Source: a virus. From it: a stretch of 31,181 nucleotides of DNA. Made by a program: the position numbers and the translations under genes. How positions within the stretch are numbered: the first letter of the stretch is position 1; every line of letters starts with the position of its first letter. The DNA lies in IMG/VR virus record IMGVR_UViG_3300030106_001533, positions 1 through 31,181 of that record; one strand, written 5' to 3'. The notes beneath the pieces are model-generated. The model searched no databases. It had not been told where the DNA came from and saw only the letters and a program-made list of their open reading frames with translations. Positions 3 through 24,100 of the stretch are shown in pieces.

Positions 3-335
3 AACTCTTGTATCGTTGCAGGTTTTTCTGTTCCAGTTCAAAAGTTGTTGGAGACACCAACTAAGGGACTGACAGATGCTAAAAAGATCTCTAAGAGATA
101 TTGGCAGCAACAGATAGGGGCTAGACGTAACGACTTATCCAAAGCTCTTGCCAAGCGAGAGAGCGGAGGTAATGGGGCTGGTGGCAAGCCTCGCACACCT
201 GAACAACGTGTCAGGGATAACCTTAATGATGTGCTTAAAGTAATCGAGGCTGTCGAGGACGAAAAGCAATTAGTTAAGGGCGAGGCTATCAAGCACCTTG
301 TTAAACAAGCCGTTGCTTTACTACCTAGCAATTAA
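3..335 (+). CDS. Hypothetical protein, 5'-truncated by the window edge
   Basis: The reading frame is open from the first complete codon at base 3 to a TAA at 333-335, so the gene almost certainly begins outside the window. The first internal starts are two TTG codons at 45 and 48 with no Shine-Dalgarno in front, which argues against a start there. The visible 110 residues are charged and probably helical: a Lys/Arg-rich stretch (KKISKRYWQQQIGARRND), a short Gly-rich hinge (GGNGAGGKPRTPEQR) and a C-terminal helix with Glu/Lys heptads. I do not recognise the family. It is followed after 16 bases by a GC-rich hairpin and then by two small coupled genes. A small DNA- or protein-binding role is possible but nothing shows it. 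Confidence 0.7.
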   Translation, partial: NSCIVAGFSVPVQKLLETPTKGLTDAKKISKRYWQQQIGARRNDLSKALAKRESGGNGAGGKPRTPEQRVRDNLNDVLKVIEAVEDEKQLVKGEAIKHLVKQAVALLPSN

Positions 336-868: not shown

Positions 869-885
869 GTTAGTGTCCCCCTAAC
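869..885. repeat. 17-bp palindrome P1 (one mismatch)
   Basis: GTTAGTG-TCC-CCCTAAC. The right arm has C for A at its second base, leaving a TTGTTAG/CTAACAA stem of 7 bp (867-873 with 881-887). It lies between direct repeats A1 and A2. Confidence 0.8.
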
Positions 886-894
886 AAAAAGATG

Positions 895-918
895 CCAGTT
901 ACACGGGTAGCGTTGAGC
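895..918 (+). repeat. 24-bp direct repeat, copy A2
   Basis: Perfect copy of A1, 97 bases downstream start to start. It begins nine bases after palindrome P1. Confidence 0.9.
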
Positions 919-963
919 CATTTGGACACGTGATAACTTGTTATAGTGTGTGTAGCATAGCGT

Positions 964-980
964 GTTAGTGTATCCCTAAC
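964..980. repeat. 17-bp palindrome P2 (one mismatch)
   Basis: GTTAGTG-TAT-CCCTAAC, with the same right-arm variant as P1. It lies between direct repeats A2 and A3, so repeats and palindromes alternate. Confidence 0.8.
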
Positions 981-1002
981 AAGATAACGAGTCAGTATGA
1001 AA

Positions 1003-1026
1003 CCAGTTATGGTAGTAGCGTTGAGC
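1003..1026 (+). repeat. 24-bp direct repeat, diverged copy A3
   Basis: Same length as A1 and A2. The outer parts CCAGTTA and GTAGCGTTGAGC are unchanged, but the five central bases read TGGTA instead of CACGG. The conserved ends with a variable centre suggest two contact sites for a protein. Confidence 0.85.
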
Positions 1027-1028
1027 CT

Positions 1029-1079
1029 AATGTTCGGTAATTTTTGTAATGTTCTGCGAATGTTCGGTGAATGTTCGGT
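1029..1079 (+). repeat. AATGTTC iteron cluster, forward orientation
   Basis: Four copies in 51 bases: AATGTTCGGT at 1029-1038, AATGTTCTG at 1048-1056, AATGTTCGGT at 1059-1068 and 1070-1079. Spacing is irregular (19, 11 and 11 bases). It starts three bases after direct repeat A3. Further forward copies are at 1201-1208 and 1260-1268. Confidence 0.85.
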
Positions 1080-1232
1080 TTTTTTATACAACATCCGTAC
1101 ATTATGTTTTGGTAGCATATAGTGGTGAGTTGTATCGAGCATTAGAGTTTCTTACCTATCAGCTTTTGCAGTTTAATGTAGTTTCTTAACAGTTATATAT
1201 AATGTTCGTTTTTTAAAATATTACTTCGATAT

Positions 1233-1249
1233 GTTAGTGACACACTAAC
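1233..1249. repeat. 17-bp palindrome P3
   Basis: GTTAGTG-ACA-CACTAAC, perfect 7-bp arms (8 bp counting T1232/A1250). Non-coding, in the middle of the control region. Confidence 0.9.
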
Positions 1250-1313
1250 ACGTTTTGAGAATGTTCTGTAATCGAGAAGGGGTCGTCAGCAGGTTAATAA
1301 AATCCCAATATTG

Positions 1314-1392
1314 CCGAACATTAGAACATTTCAGAAAAATCAAATACTTATTCGTATACTATAAAGAACATTATAGTACATTGCAGAACATT
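1314..1392 (-). repeat. GAACATT iteron cluster, reverse orientation
   Basis: Four copies of the inverted word: CCGAACATT at 1314-1322, AGAACATT at 1323-1330, GAACATT at 1366-1372 and CAGAACATT at 1384-1392. They face the forward cluster at 1029-1268, giving an overall inverted arrangement around the AT-rich centre and palindrome P3. Confidence 0.75.
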
Positions 1393-1469
1393 ACATTATA
1401 TGATACGATATACTACGACAGCCCACGGGTAGAGGTAATAAACCGTAGAATAACACGTTTACACATTAC

Positions 1470-1498
1470 TTGACATAGGACACTATTTGTGCTATACT
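1470..1498 (+). promoter_or_regulatory. Consensus sigma70 promoter with extended -10
   Basis: TTGACA at 1470-1475, a 17-base spacer, and TATACT at 1493-1498, preceded by TGC (1490-1492) as an extended -10. It is the best promoter seen in the window. Transcription would begin near 1505, about 27 bases before the ATG at 1532. It drives the rightward operon of the DUF3150/MoxR/VWA genes and is a host-RNA-polymerase type, as expected for early phage expression. Confidence 0.85.
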
Positions 1499-1531
1499 AT
1501 ATAGATAATGGAAATAGAACTGGAGGATTAC

Positions 1532-1705
1532 ATGGCTACCAAGAAAGTCAAGAAAGAATACAAGAGATTACCTAAGAACGCCCAATCACATTGGGAGTGG
1601 CGAGGTACTGGGTTTGTAGAGGTATTCACTATCAAAGGCAATCGATACGTGAAACATTACACACCCGATAATGTTAGTGCAACACTAACAAATAACAACA
1701 ACTAA
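1532..1705 (+). CDS. Hypothetical small basic protein (57 aa), first gene of the operon
   Basis: I place the start at ATG 1532, which has GGAGG at 1522-1526. The earlier in-frame ATG at 1508 lies only a few bases from the predicted transcription start and has no ribosome site. The product is a basic 57-residue protein: a Lys-rich N-terminus (MATKKVKKEYKRLPK), a centre with aromatic and beta-like character (HWEWRGTGFVEVFTIKGNRYVKHYT), and a polar tail ending TNNNN. The tail residues VSATLT are encoded by palindrome P4 just before the stop, so the palindrome extends or replaces the natural C-terminus. The core suggests a small beta-rich nucleic-acid or protein binder, but I do not recognise it. 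Confidence 0.65.
   Translation: MATKKVKKEYKRLPKNAQSHWEWRGTGFVEVFTIKGNRYVKHYTPDNVSATLTNNNN
1673..1689. repeat. 17-bp palindrome P4, inside a coding sequence
   Basis: GTTAGTG-CAA-CACTAAC. Read in frame as Val-Ser-Ala-Thr-Leu-Thr near the C-terminus of the 57-residue protein. It shares the upstream flank CCGATAAT with P5, about 90 bases away. Confidence 0.9.
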
Positions 1706-1725
1706 ACAAATAGAAAGGAACTACT

Positions 1726-2652
1726 ATGACTACAAATATACACAAGCTACCAAGCACCGATAATGTTAGTGACACACTAACAGAATCAGCACCGTCAATA
1801 TCTTCATCGGCAATGCTAGTCGAGTTATCGATCTCTACGTGGACTGGTCGTAAGCTAGACAAGCAAGCATCACAAGTTGTTACCACAACCAACAACGCAT
1901 CAAGTGGTGTCGCCAACGTACACAAGAAGTTACTCGGTGACTGTGCAGAGTTGGACATGATACAGAAGTTTGTCGGCAATGTTCGCAACGAACACTATGC
2001 CATGACAATGCCATGGTCAGACACTGGCATCCGACTGTTACCGACTGCACAGTACTTCAAGTACCACAGGGTAATGACGGACTTCGCCAACTCGCACAAA
2101 GAACTTATCACAAAGTTTCTCAATGCTTATGCCAATCGTGTCGCAGATGCACAAGACAAACTCGGTGACTTGTTCAGACGTATGGACTATCCAACCCCCG
2201 ATCAGATAGCGAGTAAGTTCAACTTCAATATCTCGTACATACCACTGCCCGAAGTCGGTGACTTTCGTATCGATATCGGCAACGAGCAGAAAGAGGTATT
2301 GCAGAAAAGCTACACCGATTACTATTCGTCTCAACTTAGTAATGCAATGAATGACGTATGGACACGTTTGCACAAGGTGCTTACCAATATGTCCGAACGT
2401 CTTGACTATGCAGACAAGGAGACGAAGAAAATATTTCGTGACACACTCGTCACGAATGTTGTTGATATTGTCGAACTGCTATCGGTTTGCAATGTCACCA
2501 AAGATAGTAGAATGGAGTCTATGCGAGTTAGCCTAGACAATGCCTTACGTGGTATCACACCCGATGCCTTACGTGAAGACGAGTTTCTACGTGCTGAGAC
2601 CAAGCAAGCGATCGATGATGCCATCAAAGCATTACCATCACTTGATATATAA
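1726..2652 (+). CDS. DUF3150-like phage protein
   Basis: A 308-residue protein with AGAAAGGA in front of ATG 1726. After a low-complexity N-terminus carrying the palindrome-encoded VSDTLT (residues 14-19), the rest looks like one helical domain with long amphipathic helices (for example around FANSHKELITKFLNAYANRVADAQ and YADKETKKIFRDTL). The central PLPEVGDFRIDI segment and the position directly before a MoxR ATPase and a VWA protein are why I assign it to the DUF3150 family, which in phages and bacteria travels with such ATPase/VWA pairs. Function is unknown; an adaptor or substrate of the ATPase is a reasonable guess. No membrane segment or catalytic motif is visible. The assignment rests on recollection of the family and context. 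Confidence 0.65.
   Translation: MTTNIHKLPSTDNVSDTLTESAPSISSSAMLVELSISTWTGRKLDKQASQVVTTTNNASSGVANVHKKLLGDCAELDMIQKFVGNVRNEHYAMTMPWSDTGIRLLPTAQYFKYHRVMTDFANSHKELITKFLNAYANRVADAQDKLGDLFRRMDYPTPDQIASKFNFNISYIPLPEVGDFRIDIGNEQKEVLQKSYTDYYSSQLSNAMNDVWTRLHKVLTNMSERLDYADKETKKIFRDTLVTNVVDIVELLSVCNVTKDSRMESMRVSLDNALRGITPDALREDEFLRAETKQAIDDAIKALPSLDI
1765..1781. repeat. 17-bp palindrome P5, inside a coding sequence
   Basis: GTTAGTG-ACA-CACTAAC, with the same spacer as P3. In frame it encodes Val-Ser-Asp-Thr-Leu-Thr in the disordered N-terminus of the DUF3150-like protein. Its left flank CCGATAAT is shared with P4. Confidence 0.9.
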
Positions 2653-2665
2653 TTTAACAATAACA

Positions 2666-2682
2666 GTTAGTGTTACACTAAC
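2666..2682. repeat. 17-bp palindrome P6, adjoining a ribosome site
   Basis: GTTAGTG-TTA-CACTAAC. The right arm is followed after two bases by AAAGGA, the Shine-Dalgarno of the MoxR ATPase gene. The string CACTAACAGAAAGGA is repeated exactly at P7. Confidence 0.9.
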
Positions 2683-2696
2683 AGAAAGGAACTATC

Positions 2697-3794
2697 ATGA
2701 CTAACAATTCAGCAGTGCAGATGTATGCACAATCAATCGAGCAAGTAACCAATGCTATCAAGGTAGGTGGTCACTTGAGAACTATCCTAGTGCAAGGTCA
2801 CATGGGTACTGGTAAATCTTCTATCTTGTCTAACTTGGCAAAAGAACTTACCACACATACACCATGTTACTTTGATTGCACGACCAAAGACTTGGGTGAC
2901 ATTACGATACCAAAGCTAAACATGTTAGACGGCTCGGACTACGTTGCCTTTGCCACTAACGAAGAACTTGGTGTCCATCTCAACAAGCCTATCATACTCA
3001 TGATTGACGAGTATGGTAAGGCTAATCCATCGGTCAAGAATGCAATGCTACGATTGATGCTCGAACGTAAGATTGGTGGCTACACTTTGCACAAAGATAG
3101 TATCGTGTTTGCTACGACCAACTTGGGTGCAGAAGGTGTTGGTGACTTGTTACCACCACATTCACGTAATCGTATCACGATCGTTACCATGTCCAAACCT
3201 ACTAACACGACATGGATAGAATGGGGTATCAACAATGATATCGACCCTATACTACTTGGTTGGTGTAAGGATAATCCACAGTTGTTTCATTCTTTCGAGG
3301 ATGTCAAGAACCCCGAAGACAACTTGTATATCTATCACCCCAAGGCACAGAGGGCATCGTTCTTTACACCACGTTCTGCCGAGGCTTGCAGTGACTGGCT
3401 CAAATCCAGGGAACACCTTGATGACCACACACTAACGAGTTTACTCATGGGTACTATTGGTGAGCGTGGAGCTATGGACTTGATGGCATTTGTCAAACTG
3501 GCAGACCAACTGCCTACACTTGAGAGTATCAAGAAAGAGCCTAAGACTGCCAAGATACCTACGAGTGCAAGTGCTGTGTGCATGGTGGTTTACCGAACAC
3601 TGGCATCAATAGAACGAGACTGGGTCAACGCTTGGATGGATTATCTTGTCAGACTAGACAAAGAGGCACAAGGCATGTTCGCCAATGGTGTACGTGTTCC
3701 CAAGTATGCCAAGCAGACACTTGTTATGACAAACAAGAAGTTCACAGACTGGGCAGTGCAGAACAACTACATGTTCGCATCAGATAAGAAGTAA
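2697..3794 (+). CDS. MoxR-type AAA+ ATPase
   Basis: A 365-residue ATPase with one AAA+ domain. Walker A is G34-HMGTGKS41, Walker B is IILMIDE (D104, E105), sensor 1 is FATTN (138-142), and an arginine-finger-like R157-N-R159 follows, all in the expected order. The GHMGTGKS loop, the compact size and the next-door VWA gene place it in the MoxR/CbbQ/CobS-like branch, whose members remodel or load partner proteins together with a VWA protein. Start at ATG 2697 with AGAAAGGA directly preceded by palindrome P6. The C-terminal third (about 230-365) is helical, probably the lid plus a phage-specific extension. The remodelled target in this phage cannot be told from sequence; an early role with its two neighbours is inferred. 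Confidence 0.88.
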   Translation: MTNNSAVQMYAQSIEQVTNAIKVGGHLRTILVQGHMGTGKSSILSNLAKELTTHTPCYFDCTTKDLGDITIPKLNMLDGSDYVAFATNEELGVHLNKPIILMIDEYGKANPSVKNAMLRLMLERKIGGYTLHKDSIVFATTNLGAEGVGDLLPPHSRNRITIVTMSKPTNTTWIEWGINNDIDPILLGWCKDNPQLFHSFEDVKNPEDNLYIYHPKAQRASFFTPRSAEACSDWLKSREHLDDHTLTSLLMGTIGERGAMDLMAFVKLADQLPTLESIKKEPKTAKIPTSASAVCMVVYRTLASIERDWVNAWMDYLVRLDKEAQGMFANGVRVPKYAKQTLVMTNKKFTDWAVQNNYMFASDKK

Positions 3795-3802
3795 CCAAAA
3801 AC

Positions 3803-3819
3803 GTTAGTGTAACACTAAC
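3803..3819. repeat. 17-bp palindrome P7, adjoining a ribosome site
   Basis: GTTAGTG-TAA-CACTAAC, followed after two bases by AAAGGAG, the Shine-Dalgarno of the VWA gene. It has the same arrangement as P6. Confidence 0.9.
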
Positions 3820-3833
3820 AGAAAGGAGTAACT

Positions 3834-5069
3834 ATGTTAAGCATAGGAAAAGAACTTACCACTGAGCAACGATTGTCCAAGGCAGTCGTTGACATCATGG
3901 GTAACCCAAAGTATGTCGCACTTGCAGGCATACTCATGATTGGCGAGAGGACAGTCAGCGATGACATACCAACTGCCTGCACCGATGGTGTCAATGAGAT
4001 ATATGGTAGGGAGTTTACCGATAGTCTTACCGATGCACAACTACGTTTCGTTGTGCTACACGAGAACTATCACAAGTTGTACAGACACCTTATCACGTGG
4101 CGACACTTGTACGATGAAGACCCACAACTTGCAAATATTGCATGTGACTATGTTATCAATCTCAAGATTTACGATGACAACAAAGATGGGTTTGCAACCA
4201 TGCCAGCCATGGCTTGTTTTGACGAGCAGTATCGAGACATGGACACGGCATACGTGTACAATCTTCTCAAGAAGAAGTATCGACAACCACCACCCGATGG
4301 TCAACAACCGAACAGTGGATCTGGTAATGGTCAACCAATACAAGGTGGCTCGTTACCACAAAACTTCGATGACCACGATTGGGAGAGTGCTGAGTCAATG
4401 AGCGAGCAAGACAAACGAGAACTTGCCAAGGACATTGACGAGGCTATCCGACAAGGTGCATTGATTGCAGGCAAGATGGGTAGTGGTGGTGACCGTGACC
4501 TTGACGAACTGCTCAAACCACAGATCGATTGGCGAGAGGTGTTGCGAGAGTTTATCACGTCTACGTGTGCAGGCAGTGACTACTCTACGTGGCAACGACC
4601 TAACAGACGATTCGTATCTATCGGTGCATACATGCCGAGTGGTATATCGGAGAAAGTGGGAGAACTTGTTATCGCTATCGACACAAGTGGTTCGATCGGT
4701 CAACTAGAACTCACTGCTTTTCTATCCGAGGTGCAATCGATCTGCGACACTGTGTCACCCGATAAGATACGACTGCTCTATTGGGACACACAAATCTGTC
4801 AAGACGAGAAGTACGAGATGCACGAGATCGATCAGTTGGTCGAGTCCACCAAGCCACAAGGTGGTGGTGGCACAATGGTCGAGTGTGTACCCGATCACAT
4901 AACAAGTGAGGGTATCAAACCTCAAGCATGTATCGTGCTGACCGATGGCTATCTAGGTGGCAGTTGGGGTTCGTGGTCTTGTCCAGTGCTATGGTGCATC
5001 ATGGACAACAAGCAAGCCAATCCGACTGTCGGTAAAACTGTTCACATAAAAGGAAGGAGTATGTTATGA
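3834..5069 (+). CDS. DUF2201-type metallopeptidase-like/VWA protein
   Basis: A 411-residue two-domain protein. The N-terminal part has a zinc-protease type HExxH (H76-ENY-H80, followed by KLYRH) and a downstream D105-YVIN that could supply a further ligand. A Pro/Gly/Gln-rich linker spans about 151-178. The C-terminal von Willebrand A domain has a MIDAS motif D283-T-S-G-S287 and a later LTDG segment that fits the acidic MIDAS position. This order matches the DUF2201_N plus DUF2201 arrangement, typically beside a MoxR ATPase, as here. The start at ATG 3834 follows AAAGGAG just after palindrome P7. Whether HENYH is catalytic or only structural is unknown. It probably acts as the metal-dependent partner of the upstream ATPase. 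Confidence 0.85.
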   Translation: MLSIGKELTTEQRLSKAVVDIMGNPKYVALAGILMIGERTVSDDIPTACTDGVNEIYGREFTDSLTDAQLRFVVLHENYHKLYRHLITWRHLYDEDPQLANIACDYVINLKIYDDNKDGFATMPAMACFDEQYRDMDTAYVYNLLKKKYRQPPPDGQQPNSGSGNGQPIQGGSLPQNFDDHDWESAESMSEQDKRELAKDIDEAIRQGALIAGKMGSGGDRDLDELLKPQIDWREVLREFITSTCAGSDYSTWQRPNRRFVSIGAYMPSGISEKVGELVIAIDTSGSIGQLELTAFLSEVQSICDTVSPDKIRLLYWDTQICQDEKYEMHEIDQLVESTKPQGGGGTMVECVPDHITSEGIKPQACIVLTDGYLGGSWGSWSCPVLWCIMDNKQANPTVGKTVHIKGRSML

Positions 5070-5260
5070 CACGTTATCAGAACAGCCAAATGATAGAGGT
5101 AGAGGAAGAGTTCTACGGCTATCTAAACAACGATGGTATGACCAACGAGCAAGCCATCGTTAAGATCAAAGAGAATCATGGAGAACATTGGGAAGAATAT
5201 ATCCGTGATGTAATAGCAAAAGAAGTAACAACAATTAACAACATAAAGGAGAAGTTCTAA
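5066..5260 (+). CDS. Hypothetical small acidic protein (64 aa)
   Basis: ATG 5066 overlaps the TGA of the VWA gene (ATGA) and has GGAAGGAG upstream, so the two are coupled. The product is acidic and helical (EVEEEFYGYLNNDG, then EQAIVKIKENHGEHWEEYIRDVIAKE). No motif or family is recognised. Its own stop overlaps the next start (TAATG at 5258-5262). The tight coupling to the ATPase/VWA genes suggests it belongs to the same functional unit. Confidence 0.7.
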   Translation: MTRYQNSQMIEVEEEFYGYLNNDGMTNEQAIVKIKENHGEHWEEYIRDVIAKEVTTINNIKEKF

Positions 5261-6402
5261 TGTACGGAGTATCACAGTATGGCATGTCTAGGTTTGGTCT
5301 AAACTGCTTTGAGCAGGTGGAGGCTTGTTACAACAACACCAAACCAATCATCAGTAAAAATCAAACGTTGCAACACGATATACGACCTATCGGTGACAGA
5401 GGTAGAAAGTATGAGCGTATCGCTAAAGTTTCCAATAATTGTTACATGTTACTCAATGGCGAGTTAGGTGACAATACAACATACTATTACAAGTATGAGG
5501 ATAACCACCAACTTCATACTATCCAAGATGTTAGTGCAACACTAACATTTGCACCAGTAGTATGGACTAGGCATGATGGCTACGACACGATACGTATTCG
5601 TAATGGGTCGGGTCACTATGCTCACAACTCTAGGTACTCGTTCATTGCAAGATGTTTACCTAACAGTATGAGTGCTATCATTGGCGATGGTAAGCAGTAC
5701 ATAGTCCATGACAATGTGAAGTATCTCTTACCCAAGAGCATGTGGTTTCCAAACAACCATTACAATGCTCAAAATGGTTTGAAGAAAGATGACGAGCATT
5801 ACCTAGTGTTTAGAAGAGATCATGGTGATACCAAGTTCAAACTTATTGGTAACAAGTTTACGTGGCATGCCAAACGTTATGGTGTGGACGTGGCAACTAA
5901 GAACAAGTACAAGTCACAGATCAACGAACTGTGGGACTACATGTGTACAGTTGCACCTATGTTCAACAACATCTTTGGTGGCAGGGACAGAGGTAGCAGT
6001 GGTTTCCATATTAACAATATAGAAACACGACAACACAAGTACAAAGCTAAACGTGAGGCACTCTACGAGGGTCGTGAGGAAGTGCAGAACTATGTGCAGA
6101 ATGTTCTTAACATACCACAAGAGAGAGTTCACTACATGCGTGATAGTCAGATATACCAAGACTCGCCATGGAAACATACTTACTTTCCAGTGCCTTTGAT
6201 AGAGCAGATACTGGCTGATGACCAACACCCCATGCGTCTTAACTTGGTAAGAGATATTATCAATGACATGGAAGACATAGTGGACTGCCAAGATAAGCAA
6301 GAGGCATCGAAGATACGTTCGCAGTATAATCGATGGTTTAACAAGCACATGGGTTTCACAAGACTTGTGGCTGATGAACACATAACAAAGGAGGAAGTGT
6401 AA
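5260..6402 (+). CDS. Hypothetical protein (380 aa) carrying an in-frame palindrome
   Basis: ATG 5260 follows AAGGAG and overlaps the preceding stop. The 380-residue product is rich in Tyr, Asn, His and Arg. The N-terminal half looks beta-rich, with repeated short strands such as YDTIRIRNGSGHYAHNSRYS. The C-terminal half looks helical (residues about 255-370). Palindrome P8 encodes DVSATLTF at about residues 90-97, between two predicted strands, so this is a tolerated insertion or a loop. There is no signal peptide or transmembrane helix and no catalytic motif I can defend. I do not recognise the family. It is the largest unknown in the operon and a good candidate for an unstudied early phage function. 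Confidence 0.75.
   Translation: MYGVSQYGMSRFGLNCFEQVEACYNNTKPIISKNQTLQHDIRPIGDRGRKYERIAKVSNNCYMLLNGELGDNTTYYYKYEDNHQLHTIQDVSATLTFAPVVWTRHDGYDTIRIRNGSGHYAHNSRYSFIARCLPNSMSAIIGDGKQYIVHDNVKYLLPKSMWFPNNHYNAQNGLKKDDEHYLVFRRDHGDTKFKLIGNKFTWHAKRYGVDVATKNKYKSQINELWDYMCTVAPMFNNIFGGRDRGSSGFHINNIETRQHKYKAKREALYEGREEVQNYVQNVLNIPQERVHYMRDSQIYQDSPWKHTYFPVPLIEQILADDQHPMRLNLVRDIINDMEDIVDCQDKQEASKIRSQYNRWFNKHMGFTRLVADEHITKEEV
5530..5546. repeat. 17-bp palindrome P8, inside a coding sequence
   Basis: GTTAGTG-CAA-CACTAAC, extended to 9-bp arms (ATGTTAGTG/CACTAACAT, 5528-5548). In frame it encodes Val-Ser-Ala-Thr-Leu-Thr in the middle of the 380-residue unknown protein. Confidence 0.9.
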
Positions 6403-6602
6403 TGCGATACAAGCCAATGGTAAACAAAATCAAAGCGTACCTCGAAGAGGAGGTACGTGCTAACCAGTCTCTACAAAACCTACAAGCAACATGCGAAGAG
6501 GCTTGTGGTCACGACTTGGAAACAGACCAAATACACATGGGTCGTGCCGAGTGTGCCGAGGGACTATTAAACCAAATAAAGAAATGGGAGAATGAACAAT
6601 GA
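6402..6602 (+). CDS. Hypothetical small helical protein (66 aa)
   Basis: ATG 6402 overlaps the previous stop (TAATG) with AAGGAGG in front. The product is a charged helical protein with two Cys (CEEACGHD) and a third Cys in GRAECAEG; this is not a classical zinc motif. No family is recognised. Its stop overlaps the next gene (ATGA at 6599-6602), so it is translated within the same coupled series. Confidence 0.7.
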   Translation: MRYKPMVNKIKAYLEEEVRANQSLQNLQATCEEACGHDLETDQIHMGRAECAEGLLNQIKKWENEQ

Positions 6603-7624
6603 CTAATAAGATATCGTATTGGAAAAGATACAAGGACAACTATGCACGAGTGTCTAAGTTAAGTCCTTACGTGATGGGTGACACTACAAGCAAACCCGAA
6701 TCGTGGCATGGCAACCAAAAAACTTTAGAGCAGTTTGTGCAGCAGTTGAGTAAAGAACTACGTGGTGTTAAGTTTACACGTAGGAGAGATGACTCTTATT
6801 GGATACACAGAGATGATAACCCATACGTGATGGGTTGGGTAGGGAGAGGTCTTAACTTCCTATCCACCACCACGAGTGATGACTATCTGTTTTGTGTATG
6901 TGCTAGGACTATCAACAACTGGAAGTACAATGATGGTAGTTGGCAACACTATGCCAAGATGTCAACGAGATGGGACAAAGCAATGAAGAACGCTAAAACT
7001 TATTTACGTGTGATGTCACCTCACGACATGGCATACATAAACCAAGATCGCATCGTGCAATCATTGGGTAATGTCACTCGACAAGAAGAGAACAAGTTGG
7101 GTAATCTTTACAAGTCGTTGTTCAACTCTGTGCAAGAAAGCTATGACTACATTAGAAAGTTCAAGGCTAATCGTGCCAAGGAACATACTGTGTTACAGTT
7201 CATGCACAAGATATACACAGAGAAACGTGAGTTGTTGGAAGACGACCCCGACTTCCTCAAAACATACGAGGACTTCCTTGCACAAGAGCAACAACTGAGT
7301 GAAGCCCTGAAGAAACAACACAAGGTGTATCACATACGTGTTTACGAAGATGCTTTCAAAGTTAGGAAGTTTGATGTAACATTTATTGGTAACACAGAGG
7401 GAGGCACACTTGGCACAAGTCAACCGATAGAAGATATGGGTCTGTCACCCAAGGTAGTGCTTGATGATACCACGTTACCCGAAGACTTGATGGGTAAGGT
7501 ATCTGTGTTAACAATGTTAGACGAGGGAGGGTTTGTCGATGAAGTTGGCTACAAGATTGATTCCACGATGTTTTATGTCATCACGGAAAGAGACTTCCAC
7601 ATCTCATCAGATACCACACGATAA
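6599..7624 (+). CDS. Hypothetical protein (341 aa) with a C-terminal domain repeated in the next gene
   Basis: ATG 6599 overlaps the preceding stop and has GGGAGAA upstream. The N-terminal two thirds are aromatic-rich and then helical (about 185-255). The last 50 residues contain LPEDLMGKVSVLTML, then EVGYKI and FYVI, which align with LPRWVQEKMALLMM, DVGKRI and FWIY in the following gene. I read this as the same small domain fused here and free-standing next door. The family is unknown to me. The gene ends at TAA 7622-7624. A +1 slip just before that stop (CGA-TAA-C) would join the two frames, but an independent start for the next gene explains the data equally well. Confidence 0.72.
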   Translation: MTNKISYWKRYKDNYARVSKLSPYVMGDTTSKPESWHGNQKTLEQFVQQLSKELRGVKFTRRRDDSYWIHRDDNPYVMGWVGRGLNFLSTTTSDDYLFCVCARTINNWKYNDGSWQHYAKMSTRWDKAMKNAKTYLRVMSPHDMAYINQDRIVQSLGNVTRQEENKLGNLYKSLFNSVQESYDYIRKFKANRAKEHTVLQFMHKIYTEKRELLEDDPDFLKTYEDFLAQEQQLSEALKKQHKVYHIRVYEDAFKVRKFDVTFIGNTEGGTLGTSQPIEDMGLSPKVVLDDTTLPEDLMGKVSVLTMLDEGGFVDEVGYKIDSTMFYVITERDFHISSDTTR

Positions 7625-7862
7625 CAAGATATACCGTGTTTCAATAGACAATGGTAGCAAATGTGTTAAAATAACACCGATTGGTATCAATGGTATTGAC
7701 AACCAAGCAGAGGGTTGGTATGATTCTGTTGATGTACTACCTAGATGGGTGCAAGAGAAGATGGCATTACTTATGATGTCCGATGCTCAACCACCTATCT
7801 ACGAAGTGGATGACGTAGGCAAAAGGATTAACAACGATATCTTTTGGATATATCATCCGTAA
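7539..7862 (+). CDS. Hypothetical small protein (107 aa), stand-alone copy of the upstream C-terminal domain
   Basis: The start is uncertain. ATG 7539 has the best ribosome site (GGGAGGG at 7525-7531) but overlaps the previous gene by 86 bases, and the first ~25 residues look like out-of-frame sequence. ATG 7575 is the alternative. The region after 7620 (DNKIYRVSIDNG onwards) is clearly protein-like. It holds WYDSVDVLPRWVQEKMALLMM, written here as WYDSVDVLP plus RWVQEKMALLMM, and ends NDIFWIYHP. That matches the last 50 residues of the upstream product. Function is unknown. It ends the left operon and is followed by two palindromes. Confidence 0.62.
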   Translation: MKLATRLIPRCFMSSRKETSTSHQIPHDNKIYRVSIDNGSKCVKITPIGINGIDNQAEGWYDSVDVLPRWVQEKMALLMMSDAQPPIYEVDDVGKRINNDIFWIYHP

Positions 7863-7872
7863 CAATTAAAAT

Positions 7873-7889
7873 GTTAGTGTGGCACTAAC
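7873..7889. repeat. 17-bp palindrome P9
   Basis: GTTAGTG-TGG-CACTAAC in the 94-base gap before the DNA-metabolism genes. Its centre is 38 bases from that of P10. Confidence 0.9.
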
Positions 7890-7910
7890 AGTTTTGGGAA
7901 ACCTTAATTT

Positions 7911-7927
7911 GTTAGTGTTGCACTAAC
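7911..7927. repeat. 17-bp palindrome P10
   Basis: GTTAGTG-TTG-CACTAAC, tandem with P9. It ends 18 bases before the GGGAGG ribosome site of the next gene. The rightmost member of the family in the window. Confidence 0.9.
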
Positions 7928-7956: not shown

Positions 7957-8214
7957 ATGACAAGTTACAGTAAGATAAAAGGAAGATCAAAAGGTCATAG
8001 ATATAGGAATAGCATAGTTGATTTGCAAAGAGATTTATGGAGAGCGAACGCAAAGAAGACATCACAAGAATTAGGTATGGACGAGAGATTTGAAGATGAC
8101 CCAAGAGCATTGAAAGAAATAGAATATGGTAGAGTGGTGCGAAAGCCTACAACACCTTTGAGTAGTGGATCTACATTAGGCACAGTAGAATTTGAAAATA
8201 AAAAATGGTCTTGA
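7957..8214 (+). CDS. Hypothetical basic protein (85 aa)
   Basis: ATG 7957 follows GGGAGG. The N-terminus is strongly basic (SKIKGRSKGHRYRNS), then a helix (VDLQRDLWRANAKKTSQELG), an acidic patch (DERFEDDPRALKEIEYGR) and a polar tail. No family is recognised. It overlaps the VRR-NUC gene by 10 bases, so the two are coupled. It is the first gene after the tandem palindromes P9/P10 and could be subject to their control. Confidence 0.7.
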   Translation: MTSYSKIKGRSKGHRYRNSIVDLQRDLWRANAKKTSQELGMDERFEDDPRALKEIEYGRVVRKPTTPLSSGSTLGTVEFENKKWS

Positions 8215-13739: not shown

Positions 13740-14138
13740 ATGGAAGAATCTTCCCTATCTGCTGAAAAGTTAACTAAAGCGTATATAAGAATAAGAGAGG
13801 AACGAGCATCGCTCAGTGCCTCCTATAAAGAAAAAGATACAGCGTTAGTTAATCAGCTAGACATGGTGCGACAAGGACTTCTCAATTACTGTGAGAAACA
13901 TGGTGTTGAGAGTGTGAAAACTTCTGAAGGTCTCTTTTATAGAACGACAAAGACAAAGTATTGGACTAGCGATTGGGAATCCATGCACAAGTTTATACTA
14001 CAGCATGAAGTACCTGAGTTATTTGATAAACGTCTTAATCAGTCAAACTTAAAAGAGTTTTTGGAAGATAACCCCGATGTATATCCCGAAGGTCTTAACA
14101 AAGACACGGAGTACGTCATAACTGTGAGGAAAAAATAA
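13740..14138 (+). CDS. Conserved phage protein, possibly Gam-like
   Basis: A 132-residue protein with CGGAGA in front of ATG 13740. Residues 1-55 form a long charged helical hairpin or coiled coil (RIREERASLSASYKEKD, then MVRQGLLNYCEKHG). The second half is a compact domain with EGLFYRTTKTKYWTSDW, FDKRLNQSNLKEF and YVITVRKK. This arrangement of a helical hairpin followed by a small strand-helix domain recalls Gam-type host-nuclease inhibitors, and the neighbours (SSB, RecB-type nuclease) fit. I cannot confirm homology, so the role is a suggestion. The stop overlaps the next start (TAATG). Confidence 0.62.
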   Translation: MEESSLSAEKLTKAYIRIREERASLSASYKEKDTALVNQLDMVRQGLLNYCEKHGVESVKTSEGLFYRTTKTKYWTSDWESMHKFILQHEVPELFDKRLNQSNLKEFLEDNPDVYPEGLNKDTEYVITVRKK

Positions 14139-14419
14139 TGGTAGGAAAATATGTACCAATAGAGGATGTGGCTAAACACTTTTCAGTTTCCATATCCACA
14201 ATCCGAGCATGGGTGCGTCAGAAAGAAATACCCGATGATACTTACATAAAAGTGGGTAATACTTATCGGTTTAATATTGAGGACGTATCCGATGCTTTAA
14301 CAAACAAGTCTAAACCATTGAAAGACAACGACAATATTGTCAGGGAAACTTGGCATCACGAAGATGACGTTGATAAAAAACATGGTATAGAAAAAGTAAA
14401 CCTCGACCAAGATTATTAG
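14138..14419 (+). CDS. Helix-turn-helix DNA-binding protein (excisionase/MerR-like)
   Basis: A 93-residue protein, overlapping the previous stop by one base. Residues 6-50 fit a winged helix-turn-helix of the excisionase type: YVPIEDVAKHFSVSISTIRA forms the two helices, WVRQKEIP the turn into the wing, and YIKVGNTYRFNIEDV the wing and following helix. The C-terminal 40 residues are acidic and probably disordered. It is the only clear sequence-specific DNA-binding regulator in the window, so it is a candidate binder of the palindrome family or direct repeats, though nothing shows this directly. The residues VSDALT at the end of the domain resemble the palindrome-encoded VSDTLT. Confidence 0.78.
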   Translation: MVGKYVPIEDVAKHFSVSISTIRAWVRQKEIPDDTYIKVGNTYRFNIEDVSDALTNKSKPLKDNDNIVRETWHHEDDVDKKHGIEKVNLDQDY

Positions 14420-17986: not shown

Positions 17987-18185
17987 TTTAAACCCTGATG
18001 GGGTTCACATAGTTGTAAACTGGGATAGCATGGGAATCAATGCCTCTGTGTTTATATTATGTATAAATACTGTGGAGGCTACCAAGCAAATAAAAAGAAT
18101 ATTTATATCTAAAGGTTGGGAAAGCGAGATACGCACAGTCGTTGAAGATGGCAAATTAGGCGTGCGTGTATGGCGTATGTCTTAG
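17964..18185 (+). CDS. Hypothetical small protein (73 aa), end of the rightward arm
   Basis: ATG 17964 lies within the 3' end of the primase gene; its ribosome site is weak (AGAAG). The product has a compact alternating pattern (HIVVNWDSMGINASVFILCINT, given here as HIVVNWDSM and ASVFILCINT, then EATKQIKRIFISKGW and LGVRVWRMS) that suggests a small alpha/beta domain. I have the impression it is a conserved small phage protein downstream of the primase-helicase but cannot name a family. Its TAG (18183-18185) overlaps the TAA of the leftward giant gene. Confidence 0.68.
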   Translation: MSVLKTYDLNPDGVHIVVNWDSMGINASVFILCINTVEATKQIKRIFISKGWESEIRTVVEDGKLGVRVWRMS

Positions 18186-21100
18186 TCAAAGTCAAAATAT
18201 ATACTGTCATGCTCTGCTATATACCTTCTCATAGCAGGACTTATAGAAACGCCATTGTGCATTAGAGCTGACTGTCTAACATGCTGTTTTAAAGATCTCA
18301 TCACAGAATCGTAACTTAGTGCAAAGTTTGGAAATTTTCGATTAAACTTACTAACTTTATCCATTACATCTGTAGTGTCATTTCCCATCCTTATATCATA
18401 ATATAATTCTCTAAGTATTTTTGAACGCCTCATGTTTATGGCTTTGTCTATACCTTTTTTAACTTGATTTTGTTCTTGTATTCTAACGTAGGAAGAAGGA
18501 GGAAACCCTGCAAACTGAAAGAACAATCCTGCGGGTGATATGTCATCGGTTATCAAATCGCCTCTTCTTGTATATATACCATCTTCAGACATGTACCTGT
18601 AACCTTTTGCTAAATTACGAAAAGCCGCAGGTAGCATTCTTTCTAATCCTCTTTGAGTATCACCGAACTCATCGTTAACTTCTTTTGCACCCTCATAAAA
18701 TTGTAATGCCACACTTAGAGCAGGGCCCCCTACAAATTTTGCCGCTGATTCAATTATGCTATCATCTCTATTGTACGGATTGTTTCTAAATAATAAATCA
18801 CTTAAACCAACACGTGATGACACGTCAGTTTGAAGAAACCAACTTGTAGGGCCTTTCCATAGAAACTCACCAAGTTCTCTATTTGCAATTATTTCTATAG
18901 GTTCTTCTTCATCATCTCTAGCAAAATTTATAGCCGCTATAGCTAAACCTACGAGTGGCATACCCTGAATACCTGCTAAAATAGCAGAAGACAATAACAT
19001 ACCCATAAACTGCTTTTGAGCTATCTTTACTTCTTCGGGCGTAAACTCTTTTTGATTTAACACGGCTCTGTTAAATGTTTTCGCCAGTGTGTAATACATC
19101 TGTATACCATAAGACTTATACATTAACGCCACACGACCTACAGGAACTTGTGCTATCCTAGGTGCGTTAGCTAAAGCCGCACCACCATTCATTTCTTGAG
19201 CCCTGAATAATGCTTCGTTTGCCGCTAATTCTTGTTTTTGTTCTAATGTTAAATTTCTTTCATTACCTTTTGGATTAGTATTCATCCTATCAAGTTCTAA
19301 GTTATAGGTAGAAATGAGTGCTACTTGTCTATTTAACTTTTCTTGTTGATGAAAAAAGAAAGCAGATACAGCGTTCATCTTATCCCAAAAACTTCTTACT
19401 CTACCACCCTCTTCTAAAGTTAAAGTATCATAAAACAAAGAACGGTTTAATTGCCCTCTGTCTGCGGCTGTTTTTACTAACGGTATTAAATTTTGTAACA
19501 TTTCTCTTTTATCTGCGTCTAACTCTATGTCAGTGCGTATAGAATAATTACCTTTATCATCTAAAACATAATAGTTATCTATAGAGGGCATACCACCTGC
19601 TGTAACAGTTTCTCCTGTGGGAGTTGTTAAAATACGAGCATCCTTTTTCCCTATTTGCATACCCATATTTGTAAACGGCACTTTTATTTTTGCACCTAAA
19701 CCACTGCCGCCCCATAAACGCATAGCTTGACCTATGGCTTTTATAGATTTGTCTTGTCCGTATTTACCTCCTAAAATAGGTTGGAACATAAGAGGTATTT
19801 GAGATGAGTTGACCACAGCAGAGGATAAGTTAAAGCCTATAGTACCTAAAAATGCTATCCTATTAAATTGTGCAGATGCTCTCATGGCAAAATTGTTAGG
19901 TGGATTACGAGCAAATTTTGATCTTTCTATTAACTCTTGTGCATATACTGTAGCAGAATCATCTCTTGTTCCCTTTAACAATTCTTCTTCAATCTCTGTT
20001 TCTAATTGCTGTAACTGTTTACCATAGTTCATCTTTGCTACTTGTCGGGCTATGTCATAACCTTTTTGTTTAAAAGCACCTAACGCATCTTCTTTATACC
20101 CAGGGCTATTTTTTCTTTTTATGAAAGATTTAGCAAAAGAAGTTGCAGGTAAAGTTTCTATAAACATACGTAAAACTTGTTCTTGAGTTTCCTGACCTAC
20201 CTTATTTGCTTTCATAACTTGTAATACATCTTTTACAAAAGAGCCTGATGGTGCAGAGTTAAAGTTTACTTGATTTAAAGCACTATATTCTTTGATACTG
20301 TCATTATCTACATCAGGATCATTTTCTAATTCTTTTATTACATTTTTTCTAGCTGTGCTAGTTTCAAAAGCCTCGTATGCTTTTTCGGTAGAGTCACCTT
20401 TTTTTACCGTATATTCTAACCAGTAATCACCCTCACGTGTTAAAGGAAAGTAAGGTTCTATTTTATTTTTATCAAATAACTTTGCAAGTATACTATCCTT
20501 CAAAGATTTTTTTGTTTCTGCATCTGCATCCGAATTATTTATTTCACCAAGGATAACATTTTTTAATGTTTCATATTGTTTTGCATAAGTATTTCTCATG
20601 CTTTGATATATTGCCTGTCCGTCTGCACCTAATTTATTCCACTCTTTTTGTATCTCGTCATACTTTTTTAACAGATCGTTACCACTATCATCTACTTTAG
20701 CAGTGCCATCTTTCTTTTTATAGGCATCTCTATCTTTTTTAGGATCTACTCTAAAAGTAGTGCTTTGATACACAACAAAATCAAATGATTCTTTTTTACT
20801 TGGATTATTACCAAACCAATCTTGGTATCTTTTTATAGCTCCATCTATAGCGGCATCTGATTTACTTGTATCTCCAATTTGATTTTCTATAGTTTCTTGT
20901 AGTCTTTTAACTATTTGTAGAGCTTTTGCAGATTTAAAATTAAATCGTGGAGCTAAATCTCGTACAGCTTGTAACGGTAAACTAGCTAGTGTTCCTTGTT
21001 TACTTAATCTAGGTATTCTGGATGATAGATAATCATAAACTCTACTTGTGAACTCTGTCTTACTCATCACATCTTCTGTACTATTTTTTATAGTTTTCAA

Positions 21101-24100
21101 GGCTTTTAATAGTTCTGGTCTTTGTGATATTAACGCTAACTGCCCTGCTGTTCTAAATTCTGGTGCAGGAGTTATTATGTCATCTATAATCTCGTCTACT
21201 CTTGACAATGCAGTATCTACATTTTTAGTAGGTTGTCCTGTTATACGCCTTATAAAATTACCTACAATGTTTACTAATCTTTGGAACGCATTGATAGGAC
21301 TACCATCAGGATTTATCCCTGATAGTTTTGTTTGGAATGATGGGTTACTCATAGCCTCTGCTACAAATTCATCTACATTTGTTGAGCCGTACGCAGTGTC
21401 CAACATGTCTTTTACATTGTTAAATAACTCAGTAAGTTGTTTGGTTGTAGGGTGCGATTTGTTAGCTAGATTGGCAGAAGTGACAGCGTGTGCCATCTCA
21501 TGTAGTATCACGTGTGGATTGAAACCAGTGTCTGCGTCTAGTTTTATTGTGTTTGTTTTGGGGTCAAACAAACCTGATACAGGGATCGCACCCTCATCGG
21601 TCAAGTTGTTCACTATTTCTACTTTTGTTGTGCCTACCTTTTGTGCCAACTTGCCTGCAACTTGTGATGTTTCTTTACTCAAAGAAGTTGCTTCTAGTCC
21701 TTCCAATGCAGATTTTAAATCACCTGCCCTCAAAGAATTTTTAATTGTAGGATGCAGTGGTAATGATAACCCCTCTGTGGCATCCGCTTTTAAATATTTA
21801 TCTACTATTATAACTTCGGAATCAGCTATAGCCGCTATCTCTTCATCAGTTATTTTGTAATCAGCATCAGCTTTTATTATCTCATCTGCTGTAGTCATAT
21901 AATCTTCTAAAGTTTGTTTTTTGTCTTTTATGTTATTGCTAACTTCATCAAACTGCTCTGCCTCTGCTTTTTTGTTTGCCTTTAATTTTTTGTCTGTAGC
22001 AATCTCACCCCATTTACCACCAGCGGCATTACGTCTAAGTTCTCTTTGTTTTATATAATCAGAACGCTCTATAGCTATTAATTTTGTAATCGCATCATTT
22101 GCTTTTTTAGATAAGTTCTCTCTTGACCAATCTAATATTTCTTTAGCTCTATTCTGACCAGTTTTATCAAAATATTTTTTTAGTTCAGGTGTTTTTATTT
22201 CTCCTGTCTTGTAGAACCCTTTGTTAAATATAGAATCATGTGCGACAAGGACAAATACGTCAGATGTTCTGCTTACGTTTTCTGCATATCTATTAAATGC
22301 TCTACCTGCTTTTATATCTAAAGACTCTCTTGTCTGCTGTTTTCCTTTTCCTTTTTCCATTATTTCTTGCAGTTTTTGCAAATCAGATTCTTCAAATATG
22401 TTTCCATCATTATTTAAATCAATACCAGTACGAGAATCATAATCAGAAAGAGGTTTACGTAAGTTCTTTACGTACTCTGTGAGAAGCCCCTCCCTTGTTT
22501 TAACTTCTTTTTTCTTTAGTACATTCTTACGTTTACCTGTTTTCTCATCTGTTTCTATAACTACATCGTAAGTTTGCACTCCTTCGTTTATGGCTTTACT
22601 GAGCTGTGACTCTATTCTTTGTTTCTTTGGACTTTTTTGTAATTTTTTAAATGCTTTCTCACCATAAATTTGTTTAGTCTTTGTATCCTCTACAACAACT
22701 TTTTTAGGTGTTTCTTTTGGTTTTACTAACGGTTCTTTTTTATCTTCGACTTTTGATTTAGTCTTTGTTCTAACTTTTTTACCTAGAGCTTTACCTATAC
22801 CCTCTACTGTTGCGTCATCTTTCAGCTTCTGGCGGGCCCCTTTACGTCTAGTATCACCTGTTAACTTCTTTACACCCTTTTCTCTGTCAGCTACAAACGC
22901 CTCCATACGTTGAAGTGTATTGTCCGCAGTTGTAACATCCTTATTATTTACAGCCGTATCTAGTTCTCTAGTTATTACACTATACTTACCTCTATCATTC
23001 CCTTGTTGCACCTTAGTTAGTCTGGTGCTTAAATCGTTTCTTTTTTGCCTTATTTCATTAAATTTTTCTTTTGTTAACTCCTTATCAGGTGTTACTTCAG
23101 TTGTAACTTTATCCACAGGCGTTAATGTATCCTGTTGTTCTCCTTCTCTTCTTCCAACTCTAGTAGTATCTCGTTGGCTAACATCCAATCCTGCGGGTGT
23201 AAATGTTGCAAATCCTTCGGGGCTTCTAGTAGTATCGTCAGGTCTTGTTTCTGCCACGTCTTGTACAGCACCTTCAGTGCCTCTTCTAGCTGCGGTTTCG
23301 TCAATTTTTTCAATCTGTAGGTCATCTATTCCAACCTTTCTAGGTTCAGGTAGCACCGAGCCTTTTCTTTTTTTACCAACATCTGGTATTTCAGTTTTTG
23401 GTAATCTTGTACCTTTTCCAACTTCTACGCCTTTATAAATGTCACCTGCTTTTATTTGTTGATAATCTTTAGCTTCTGCTGGTATAGGTCGTCCGTCTCT
23501 TACAGCATCAGTAGCTAATTTTATTACAGCTTTTTCTTGTGCATTAACTGTTGTGTCACCTATACCTGCATCATCGAGAGCTTTTGAAAAACGTTTTTCT
23601 GTATTTGTTCTACTAGCAGTATCAAGGTTTTCTAATATAGGTCTAAGAATATCACCACGTTTTTTCTCTGTAGTTCTTCTTTGTTCTGCATCTAACGTTT
23701 TGGTGACATCTTTTATTTTAGCTTCTTTAGCTTGTCTTAGTTTTTTATCTGCTTCTACTCTAGCAGCTTCTTCATCTTTAGCTAATAAATCTCTTATTTC
23801 TGCTGTCTCATCTACATCTATTAATTCTCTTATCTGTGCATCTTCAAGCTCATCTATTAAATCTCTTTGTGTAGGAGCTTTTTTTGTATCTTCTCGTACC
23901 TCTTCTGTTTTCTTTTCTGTTTGAAAAAGATCTAATTGCTCTTCGCCTCTAACAGGTGCAGTTCCTAAGTCACTGTCAGGAAATAACTCACCTTGTTCTA
24001 AATCAGGTATGCGACTTGTATCTTTAACTGTTGGTGCAACTCCTAAATCTTGATCTGCAAACAATTCACCTTGTTTTGTAGGGTTAAACTTTCCTTCATT

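Follow-up and report, generated by a model that had tools for sequence, protein, structure and literature searches.

What reads a short palindrome that recurs ten times at one end of a viral genome fragment? The DNA in question, hereafter the window, is the whole 31,181-nucleotide stretch of the IMG/VR virus record IMGVR_UViG_3300030106_001533, and the palindrome is GTTAGTG-N3-CACTAAC. A first-pass annotation made from the letters alone had suggested either the site of a dimeric DNA-binding protein or a miniature palindromic element. We found strong support for the former. Variants of the site are dyad-symmetric and for the most part do not preserve an RNA stem. In related phages the palindrome's spelling tracks one helix of a small phage protein, c5, whose gene is truncated by the window's left edge. 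The palindromes are likely to be operators of the early gene block, regulated by c5 through self-repression and roadblocking of transcription.

The ten copies are real and clustered. All eight perfect copies and both one-mismatch copies stand where the annotation placed them, with the centre bases it gave, and no extra copy was found elsewhere in the 31,181 bases at up to three mismatches, so that the family is confined to positions 869-7927. Dinucleotide shuffles of the window (n = 100), also allowing three mismatches, gave a mean of 1.79 copies and a maximum of 6, while base composition predicts about 0.0001 perfect copies. This arm makes up eight of the nine perfect 7-3-7 palindromes of the window, and ten independent, uniformly placed sites would all fall at or before 7927 with a probability of about 1e-6. 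Full-text literature searching gave no description of the GTTAGTG palindrome among the matches listed.

The two imperfect sites, at 869..885 (GTTAGTG-TCC-CCCTAAC) and 964..980 (GTTAGTG-TAT-CCCTAAC), each have one mismatch and a half-site GTTAGGG; the T6>G half-site change of the former is the commonest variant among relatives. The perfect sites, to which no strand is assigned either, lie at 1233..1249 (centre ACA), 1673..1689 (CAA), 1765..1781 (ACA), 2666..2682 (TTA), 3803..3819 (TAA), 5530..5546 (CAA), 7873..7889 (TGG) and 7911..7927 (TTG). The copy at 1673 occupies the 3' end of open reading frame (ORF) 1508-1705, with the start of the next gene (1726) 36 nt on, and the copy at 1765 lies in frame (N-V-S-D-T-L-T) 39 nt past the start codon of that gene, which is DUF3150-like; many relatives of this gene also have a site just before or after the start. 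The start codons of an ATPase and of a VWA/DUF2201 gene follow 14 nt downstream of the copies at 2666 and 3803, respectively, and ORF 7957-8214 starts 29 nt downstream of the last copy. The copy at 5530 is in frame within ORF 5260-6402. All three copies inside ORFs (1673, 1765 and 5530) are in the only frame that the palindrome leaves open (V-S-x-x-L-T).

The palindrome belongs to a family of uncultured aquatic phages with genomes of roughly 58-67 kb. When 2.9 million viral contigs were scanned for exact copies, the matches listed included many contigs with three to nine. In thirty-two loci picked for at least three exact copies, the perfect copies number 156, beside 13 with one mismatch and 2 with two, and six permuted-arm controls on the same loci never exceeded 3 with one mismatch and 9 with two; in this set, as in the 113-locus, spacing and flank sets below, selection by motif biases the ratio of perfect to variant copies. 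The sites of relatives are not spread at background frequency through their genomes either: in five long ones (60.7-66.8 kb) they are restricted to a single early or replication stretch of about 8.5-15 kb. Conservation, the other check that the annotation had proposed, is also seen, as sites beside particular genes persist across diverged phages. The fixed spacer stood in part. Every copy in the window has N3, but relatives use N4 as a second spacing (across 36 records, 185 copies with N3, 27 with N4, 2 with N5 and one each of three other spacings, up to 40 bp), and G006 mixes seven N3 with six N4 copies. G003 has one mismatch in 8 of its 10 sites, with the core GTTAGT-N5-ACTAAC.

We also gathered 80 loci through the ATPase alone, independently of the palindrome, some of them near-duplicates. 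At least one GTTAGTG site is present in 39 and at least two in 37. Of the remaining 41, all except L195 carry another palindrome, with 6-bp arms and at least three copies, where a shuffle reference made from other sequences of 31-65 kb reached at most two. These alternatives include GTTAGTCC-N2, TGTAGTGA-N1, GTTAGGGA-N1 or N2, GTTATACG-N1, TGTTATCCA-N1, TGTTAGGC-N3, GGTAGTCC-N2, TCTATACA-N1 and CCTGAC-N4, among others. L199 and L211 have one GTTAGTG site each and a different main palindrome.

Where do these sites lie? We surveyed 646 of them in loci with at least four copies (5-bp arms, spacing plus or minus 1), using naive ORF calls with approximate start codons and accepting that some matches may be chance. 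Although ORFs of at least 60 amino acids cover 86% of the span, 420 of the 646 sites lie outside them. A site stands near the start of c5 in 42/48 cases (median 118 bp upstream of the predicted start codon), of the DUF3150-like gene in 55/68, of the ATPase in 64/79 and of the VWA gene in 41/65; the counts are 27/44 for the gene equivalent to ORF 5260-6402, 11/16 for the SNF2 helicase, 13/39 for the small nuclease and 13/55 for the gene equivalent to 6599-7624. The divergent first late gene has one in 3/49, and none was found near the starts of PolA (0/31), RecB (0/23), primase (0/6), terminase (0/47) or the next late gene (0/36). Promoter-like matches between 640 and 9000 of the window number 21, against 21.1 expected from shuffles, so most sites within the operon probably have no promoter of their own.

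The candidate reader, c5, is a protein of 160-200 amino acids, defined by gene clustering, whose gene opens the early operon beside the divergent late genes. The window holds its C-terminal 110 residues (3..335, + strand; hidden Markov model (HMM) match with E 4.5e-36, plus alignment), the N-terminal part lying beyond the left edge; a near relative has it at full length (L153:7143-7673:+). HMM matches occur in 59 of 86 loci, many of them cut short, and in 15 of 18 near-complete relatives. Of the other three, G001 and G003 encode in the same place a protein that can be aligned with the c5 profile (E 1.6e-5 and 9.8e-6 as single comparisons), while in G004 the contig ends at the c5 position. Ten c5 members matched no Pfam or PHROG family at E 0.001, a result that leaves room for a distant relation, and tblastn with the G005 protein found no match in phage records; the full alignment has too few conserved stretches to serve as a collection-search query. 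AlphaFold2 (44 sequences) gave a confident all-helical monomer (predicted local distance difference test, pLDDT, 89.8). With this model Foldseek returned 14 PDB matches at E up to 10 but none at 0.001, and in BFVD a best E of 0.11, again none at 0.001; in the VIA comparison the best Z was 5.4, with the best rows on C-terminal helices. To judge from the model, a new fold is possible. Two c5 paralogues lie close together in L154, L163 and L164, and these pairs may bind two spellings or form heterodimers; the three loci were left out of the code table and the c5 distance comparisons described next.

c5 co-varies with the palindrome in one place. We compared motif distance with protein distance in sliding 16-residue windows, controlling for ATPase distance. 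Over 36 loci the c5 window RRYWQQQIGARRNDFK reached a rho of 0.82 with motif distance and a partial value of 0.75 given ATPase distance, while partial values outside this peak were about -0.15 to 0.3. The segment falls within helix 91-119 of the model; in the window it is K-R-Y-W-Q-Q-Q-I-G-A-R-R-N-D-L-S-K, encoded at 93..143 (+), with residue 110 (L153 numbering), an Asp, at codon 132-134. When 12 other families were compared with c5 on the loci that they share, their best windows gave partial values of 0.13-0.53 against 0.63-0.86 for c5, which was higher every time; the best window of DUF3150 reached 0.56 in a separate alignment and 27-locus set. At whole-protein level the margin is small (c5 0.34 given ATPase over the 36 loci; over the same 24 loci, 0.39 for the late gene c11 and 0.41 for c5). 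Close relatives tell the same story: the c5 proteins of L187/L188 (GTTATACG), L197 (GTTAGGC) and L198 (GTAGTC) share 72-90% identity with the L194 protein (GTTAGGC), and in this set the helix segment and the motif differ together.

This co-variation can be written almost as a code. Asp at residue 110 accompanies G at base 7 of the half-site, and Lys or Arg accompanies C. The code table started from 155 proteins, of which 127 had a clear motif (28 were dropped) and 58 remained after dereplication at 80%; 36 of these pair an acidic residue with G and 16 pair Lys or Arg with C, so that 52/58 obey and 6 do not. Held-out entries included 82 with a clear motif, many near-identical to training proteins, and after dereplication 20 of 24 representatives obeyed the code and four did not. 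Among Asp110 proteins, Lys109 goes with G at base 6 (10/10) and Asn, Gly, Ser or Ala109 with T (27/28). Mutual information, mapped without L211, L214, L282 and L291, links residues 98, 102 and 103 to bases 1-2, residues 106 and 109 to base 6, residues 110 and 111 to base 7 and, weakly, residues 110 and 113 to base 8. The predicted contact residues would thus sit mainly on one helical face, with the helix running from the outer edge of the site towards the dyad.

How would such a protein act? c5 would be made first and then dimerise, with one long helix per subunit reading a half-site of 7-8 bp and half-site centres 10 or 11 bp apart; a repeat of 10 or 11 bp would amount to one turn of B-DNA and suit a dimer sitting on one face. 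The dimer would bind before its own gene and at the starts of the DUF3150-like, ATPase, VWA, 5260-type and SNF2 helicase genes. Once enough c5 had accumulated, the early block would be turned down, its promoters blocked and RNA polymerase roadblocked inside the operon, much as mycobacteriophage stoperators work, and specificity would drift from phage to phage as in immunity groups. We are highly confident that c5 binds the palindromes and consider it very likely that it regulates the early block; that it does so as a repressor and roadblock we hold only somewhat more probable than the contrary.

Several observations weigh against this account. The c5 site stands far ahead of the predicted start codon; judged by eye, in several phages it seems to be upstream of a sigma-70-like promoter rather than over it. 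This placement is also compatible with activation, or with control of the divergent late promoter, and makes repression less certain than binding. The code has exceptions: L209 (Gly with G) and L219 (Thr with G); L211 (Glu with C) and L214 (Asn with C), both poorly alignable; L282, an Asp protein with a mixed c, whose segment is identical in L283/L284 and there accompanies GGG; and L291, an Asp protein whose motif index is off by one base owing to a longer spacer. Moreover, by parsimony the Asp/basic class switched only about four to five times (on trees without L211 and L214, and with base 7 of L291 set to G by hand), so the Fisher p of 7e-12 for the code table overstates independence. The well-supported independent pairs, one on the c5 tree and two on the ATPase tree, are in agreement, though their number is too small for a test. 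Base 7 also tracks c5 residues outside the helix (63, 15 and 87, at Z 11-12 where the background is Z 3.5), and residue 74 scores with bases 1-2. We take the scores of residues 74, 15, 63 and 87 to reflect phylogeny, which would then contribute to the signal. Finally, the three centre bases are only roughly symmetric when read in gene orientation (ACA 21 vs TGT 4; ACG 19 vs CGT 9).

Which other readings fit the same sites? The most serious keeps c5 on the palindromes but makes it an activator, an antiterminator or a DNA-organising protein of the early block. The placement of the c5 site upstream of an apparent early promoter in several phages (by eye), the sites at the starts of many genes in one operon and the absence of any detected lysogeny gene that would require a repressor all speak for it. 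An autogenous site, together with sites within the operon that for the most part probably lack a promoter, suits a roadblock better, and group-specific drift of specificity is typical of repressors, to judge from the stoperator literature; we therefore regard this reading as unlikely, if still worth keeping in mind. A function in RNA, as a 7-bp hairpin for a translational regulator near ribosome-binding sites or as a terminator-like stem, is improbable. It would explain why many sites surround start codons, just before the Shine-Dalgarno sequence or in the first codons, and why the centre is imperfectly symmetric in gene orientation, and a perfect copy can indeed fold a 7-bp stem with a loop of three or four bases. 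Terminator-like hairpins also exceed shuffles between 640 and 9000 of the window (16 vs 5.2), but the three that coincide with palindrome copies and have T runs behind them are oriented on the - strand, opposite to the early genes. The variants point to DNA rather than RNA, since they alter both half-sites dyad-symmetrically and mostly break the stem. In 113 motif-selected loci with 326 distinct perfect and 23 one-mismatch copies, the main variant, T6>G, affects the left half 6 times and the right half, read on the other strand, 10 times; it breaks the stem in either arm. A wobble G-U pair is kept in 2 of the 23 one-mismatch variants and the pair is lost in 21, and the seventh pair is non-standard in 6 of the 10 sites of G003. 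The 326 perfect copies keep stem pairing, but they were selected by pattern. The centre bases are themselves roughly dyad-symmetric, with G rare at the first position and C rare at the third.

The remaining alternatives dispense with c5 altogether. A host protein could read the palindrome, the link to c5 being shared ancestry only, and the spread of G+C content in five long genomes (38-56%) means that hosts may differ; the confinement of the signal to a single 16-residue helix argues against shared ancestry, which would spread over the whole gene and its neighbours, and we think this explanation very improbable. We give still less credence to two others. Hairpin promoters of the virion RNA polymerase of phage N4 have a 7-bp stem and a 3-base loop, like the 7-bp arms and 3-base centre here. 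This geometry prompted the N4 idea, together with the VWA and ATPase proteins, whose matches include phages that we take to be N4-like (one record reads 'N4 gp24-like'), and the window, too, has a giant reverse-strand ORF after the replication genes. We dropped the idea on account of the stem-breaking variants and the c5 link. Unlike N4 promoters, the sites have a free centre, a 4-bp spacing is in use and the spelling follows c5. Nor did PDB sequence and motif searches find a polymerase: the giant ORF has no PDB sequence match at E up to 1, and a T7-like motif set, sought with crude regular expressions, is complete in 0 of 19 large proteins, although single motifs occur. The second, equally doubtful, is the miniature mobile palindrome that the annotation had offered, spread through early genes and tolerated in frame. 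Three ORFs do contain in-frame copies, and the four exact copies in L034 and in L121 share one centre, although the whole L034 record (G001) also has AAA. REP- or RPE-like elements would share a long unit, whereas here the copies have in common only the half-sites and, frequently, a flanking T/A; positions are tied to the same genes in diverged phages, and spelling co-varies with the protein helix. On these grounds we abandon the mobile element and retain c5-bound operators.

The genes around the sites fit an early block. On the + strand the window has an early/replication block that encodes a DUF3150-like protein, an AAA+ ATPase, a DUF2201/VWA protein, a small nuclease-like protein, PolA, a PD-(D/E)XK exonuclease, an SNF2 helicase, a single-strand binding protein and a primase; large genes on the - strand follow. 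The DUF3150-like gene (1726..2652, +) holds the site at 1765; its Pfam DUF3150 match is under the cut-off (E 0.069), and a homologue in Synechococcus phage MinM2 is annotated DUF3150. The AAA+ ATPase (2697..3794, +; Pfam AAA, PHROG 1297), presumably CobS/MoxR-like, has the site at 2666 in front, and the DUF2201 metallopeptidase/VWA protein (3834..5069, +; Pfam), which we take to be CobT-like, has the site at 3803 in front. The gene at 5260..6402 (+) holds the site at 5530; with neither a Pfam match at E 0.1 nor one in PHROG at E 0.01, it has no assigned function. For the 6599-7624 protein the best hit in a PDB sequence search (E 0.081) was taken as chance.

Other features of the region deserve mention. 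A strong sigma-70-like promoter at 1470-1498 (+; TTGACA-17-TATACT, with TG before the -10) precedes ORF 1508-1705, between the sites at 1233 and 1673, in a region where the total of such matches is no higher than in shuffles. In 5 of 12 relatives scanned, a second repeat, ACCAGTT-N7-TMGCGYTGAGC, adjoins palindromes in the interval from c5 to the DUF3150 gene; it is a possible promoter, origin or second binding site. The first base of CCAGTT falls at 798, 895 and 1003 of the window, at about 8099, 8196 and 8304 of L153 and at about 41642 and 41746 of G005, and the repeat is also present in L092, L061 and L161. AATGTTC/GAACATT occurs ten times (6 and 4) at 1029-1392, iteron-like and near the palindrome-rich non-coding region, and could possibly mark a replication origin. 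In several of ten relatives viewed, a stretch with ATTAGTAATACATAGG and a G-rich run stands before the c5 site (G006 about 33013-33343; L009 about 1370-1697) and is perhaps a phage-type or late promoter. Farther on, 14138-14419 (+) encodes a 93-residue excisionase-like helix-turn-helix (HTH) protein that clusters with G001 and G005 proteins and shows no link to the palindromes here. The giant ORF (18182-25063, -; 2293 residues) matches a 'DarB-like antirestriction' PHROG in its C-terminal part (E 1.9e-53), and ORFs of like size at the matching place occur in G004 (2304 residues) and G006 (2322 residues), the likeness being one of size and place.

What kind of phages are these? Megablast of 25 kb of the window found no match in phage records, and the named relatives are distant: Planktothrix and Synechococcus phages by the DUF3150-like protein, and Pseudomonas phage Rollin and Rhizobium RHph_TM phages by the primase. 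The G005 terminase shares 45-48% identity with its counterparts in the pelagiphages HTVC023P and HTVC027P and in 023Pt_psg01 and DSL-LC04. With eight approximate dinucleotide shuffles for each named phage, no repeated palindrome rose above shuffle level in the first 50 kb of these four, save one at 3 copies in HTVC023P against 2 in shuffles, nor in a 42.6-kb stretch of Rollin. CRP-810-type Roseobacter phages share cobS/cobT and a similar size, but we did not assign the window to them because CRP-810 has Prim-Pol and YqaJ and 217/251 of its relatives have an integrase (PMC11288001).

Among the 18 near-complete relatives, none has an integrase, resolvase or ParA-family match (PF00589, PF00239, PF01656) and none has HTH_3 over the cut-off, the one weak match being in G043 (E 1.4e-4). 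None of 84,980 bacterial and archaeal genomes yielded a relative to two pattern-based protein queries, which reach close relatives only. The diversified specificity therefore sits in phages that look lytic. This raises the question of why phages without sign of lysogeny diversify an operator and its regulator like immunity groups. Our tentative answer, to which we give somewhat less than even odds, is that c5 is the founding member of a new family of dimeric regulators that bind DNA, with a fold that may be new and a nearly legible residue-base code, and that it forms an immunity-like system in apparently strictly lytic phages, the groups splitting because c5 can silence the early genes of co-infecting relatives of the same group. 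An unannotated phage protein family has been paired with DNA sites from sequence alone; if the pairing is right, specificity groups could be assigned to such phages from raw contigs. Its natural specificity variants, including single-position switches (Asp-G, Lys/Arg-C), offer material for studying how a helix reads DNA.

How do these sites compare with known systems? Symmetric operators of the lambda/P22 CI type are bound by a dimer whose specificity differs among relatives, and the palindromes here resemble them in symmetry, in the dimer that we infer and in the variation between relatives. They differ in that many sites are dispersed through one operon, and c5 has no significant family match, nor was HTH_3 found over the cut-off. 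Dispersed palindromes of their own also occur in two phages that have genes in common with the window: Planktothrix phage Pag-Yong1 (L125/L149/L150) has 21 copies of GGTTCA-N3-TGAACC and Rhizobium phage RHph_TM3_14A (L127/L148) has 15 of GTTACC-N6-GGTAAC, where eight shuffles of each gave at most 2. Unlike those of the window, these cover much of the genome, late genes included, and no c5 homologue was found there by HMM.

The closest parallel lies in Cluster A mycobacteriophages. According to two accounts, L5, Bxb1 and TipsytheTRex have more than 20 repressor sites of the same spelling in promoters and short intergenic spaces, one of them upstream of the repressor's own gene, and spellings differ between phages along with the repressor (PMC6550527, PMC9283540). 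The likeness is considerable: many sites of one spelling, mostly intergenic (420/646 here), a site at the putative regulator's own gene and co-variation of spelling with protein. There are also clear differences. Stoperators are 13 bp, asymmetric and oriented with transcription, whereas the sites here are palindromes with a free centre, about ten in number and in the early block only; the Cluster A repressor is a monomer with HTH and Stoperator domains, whereas the partner here is predicted to be all-helical and has no recognised HTH family match; and Cluster A phages are temperate, whereas no integrase or ParA-family gene was found here. Because its sites are palindromic and its life style differs, the system of the window is not a member of the stoperator family, and its protein appears unrelated. 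On our best reading, however, the stoperator system is the nearest known arrangement, and the two would work alike.

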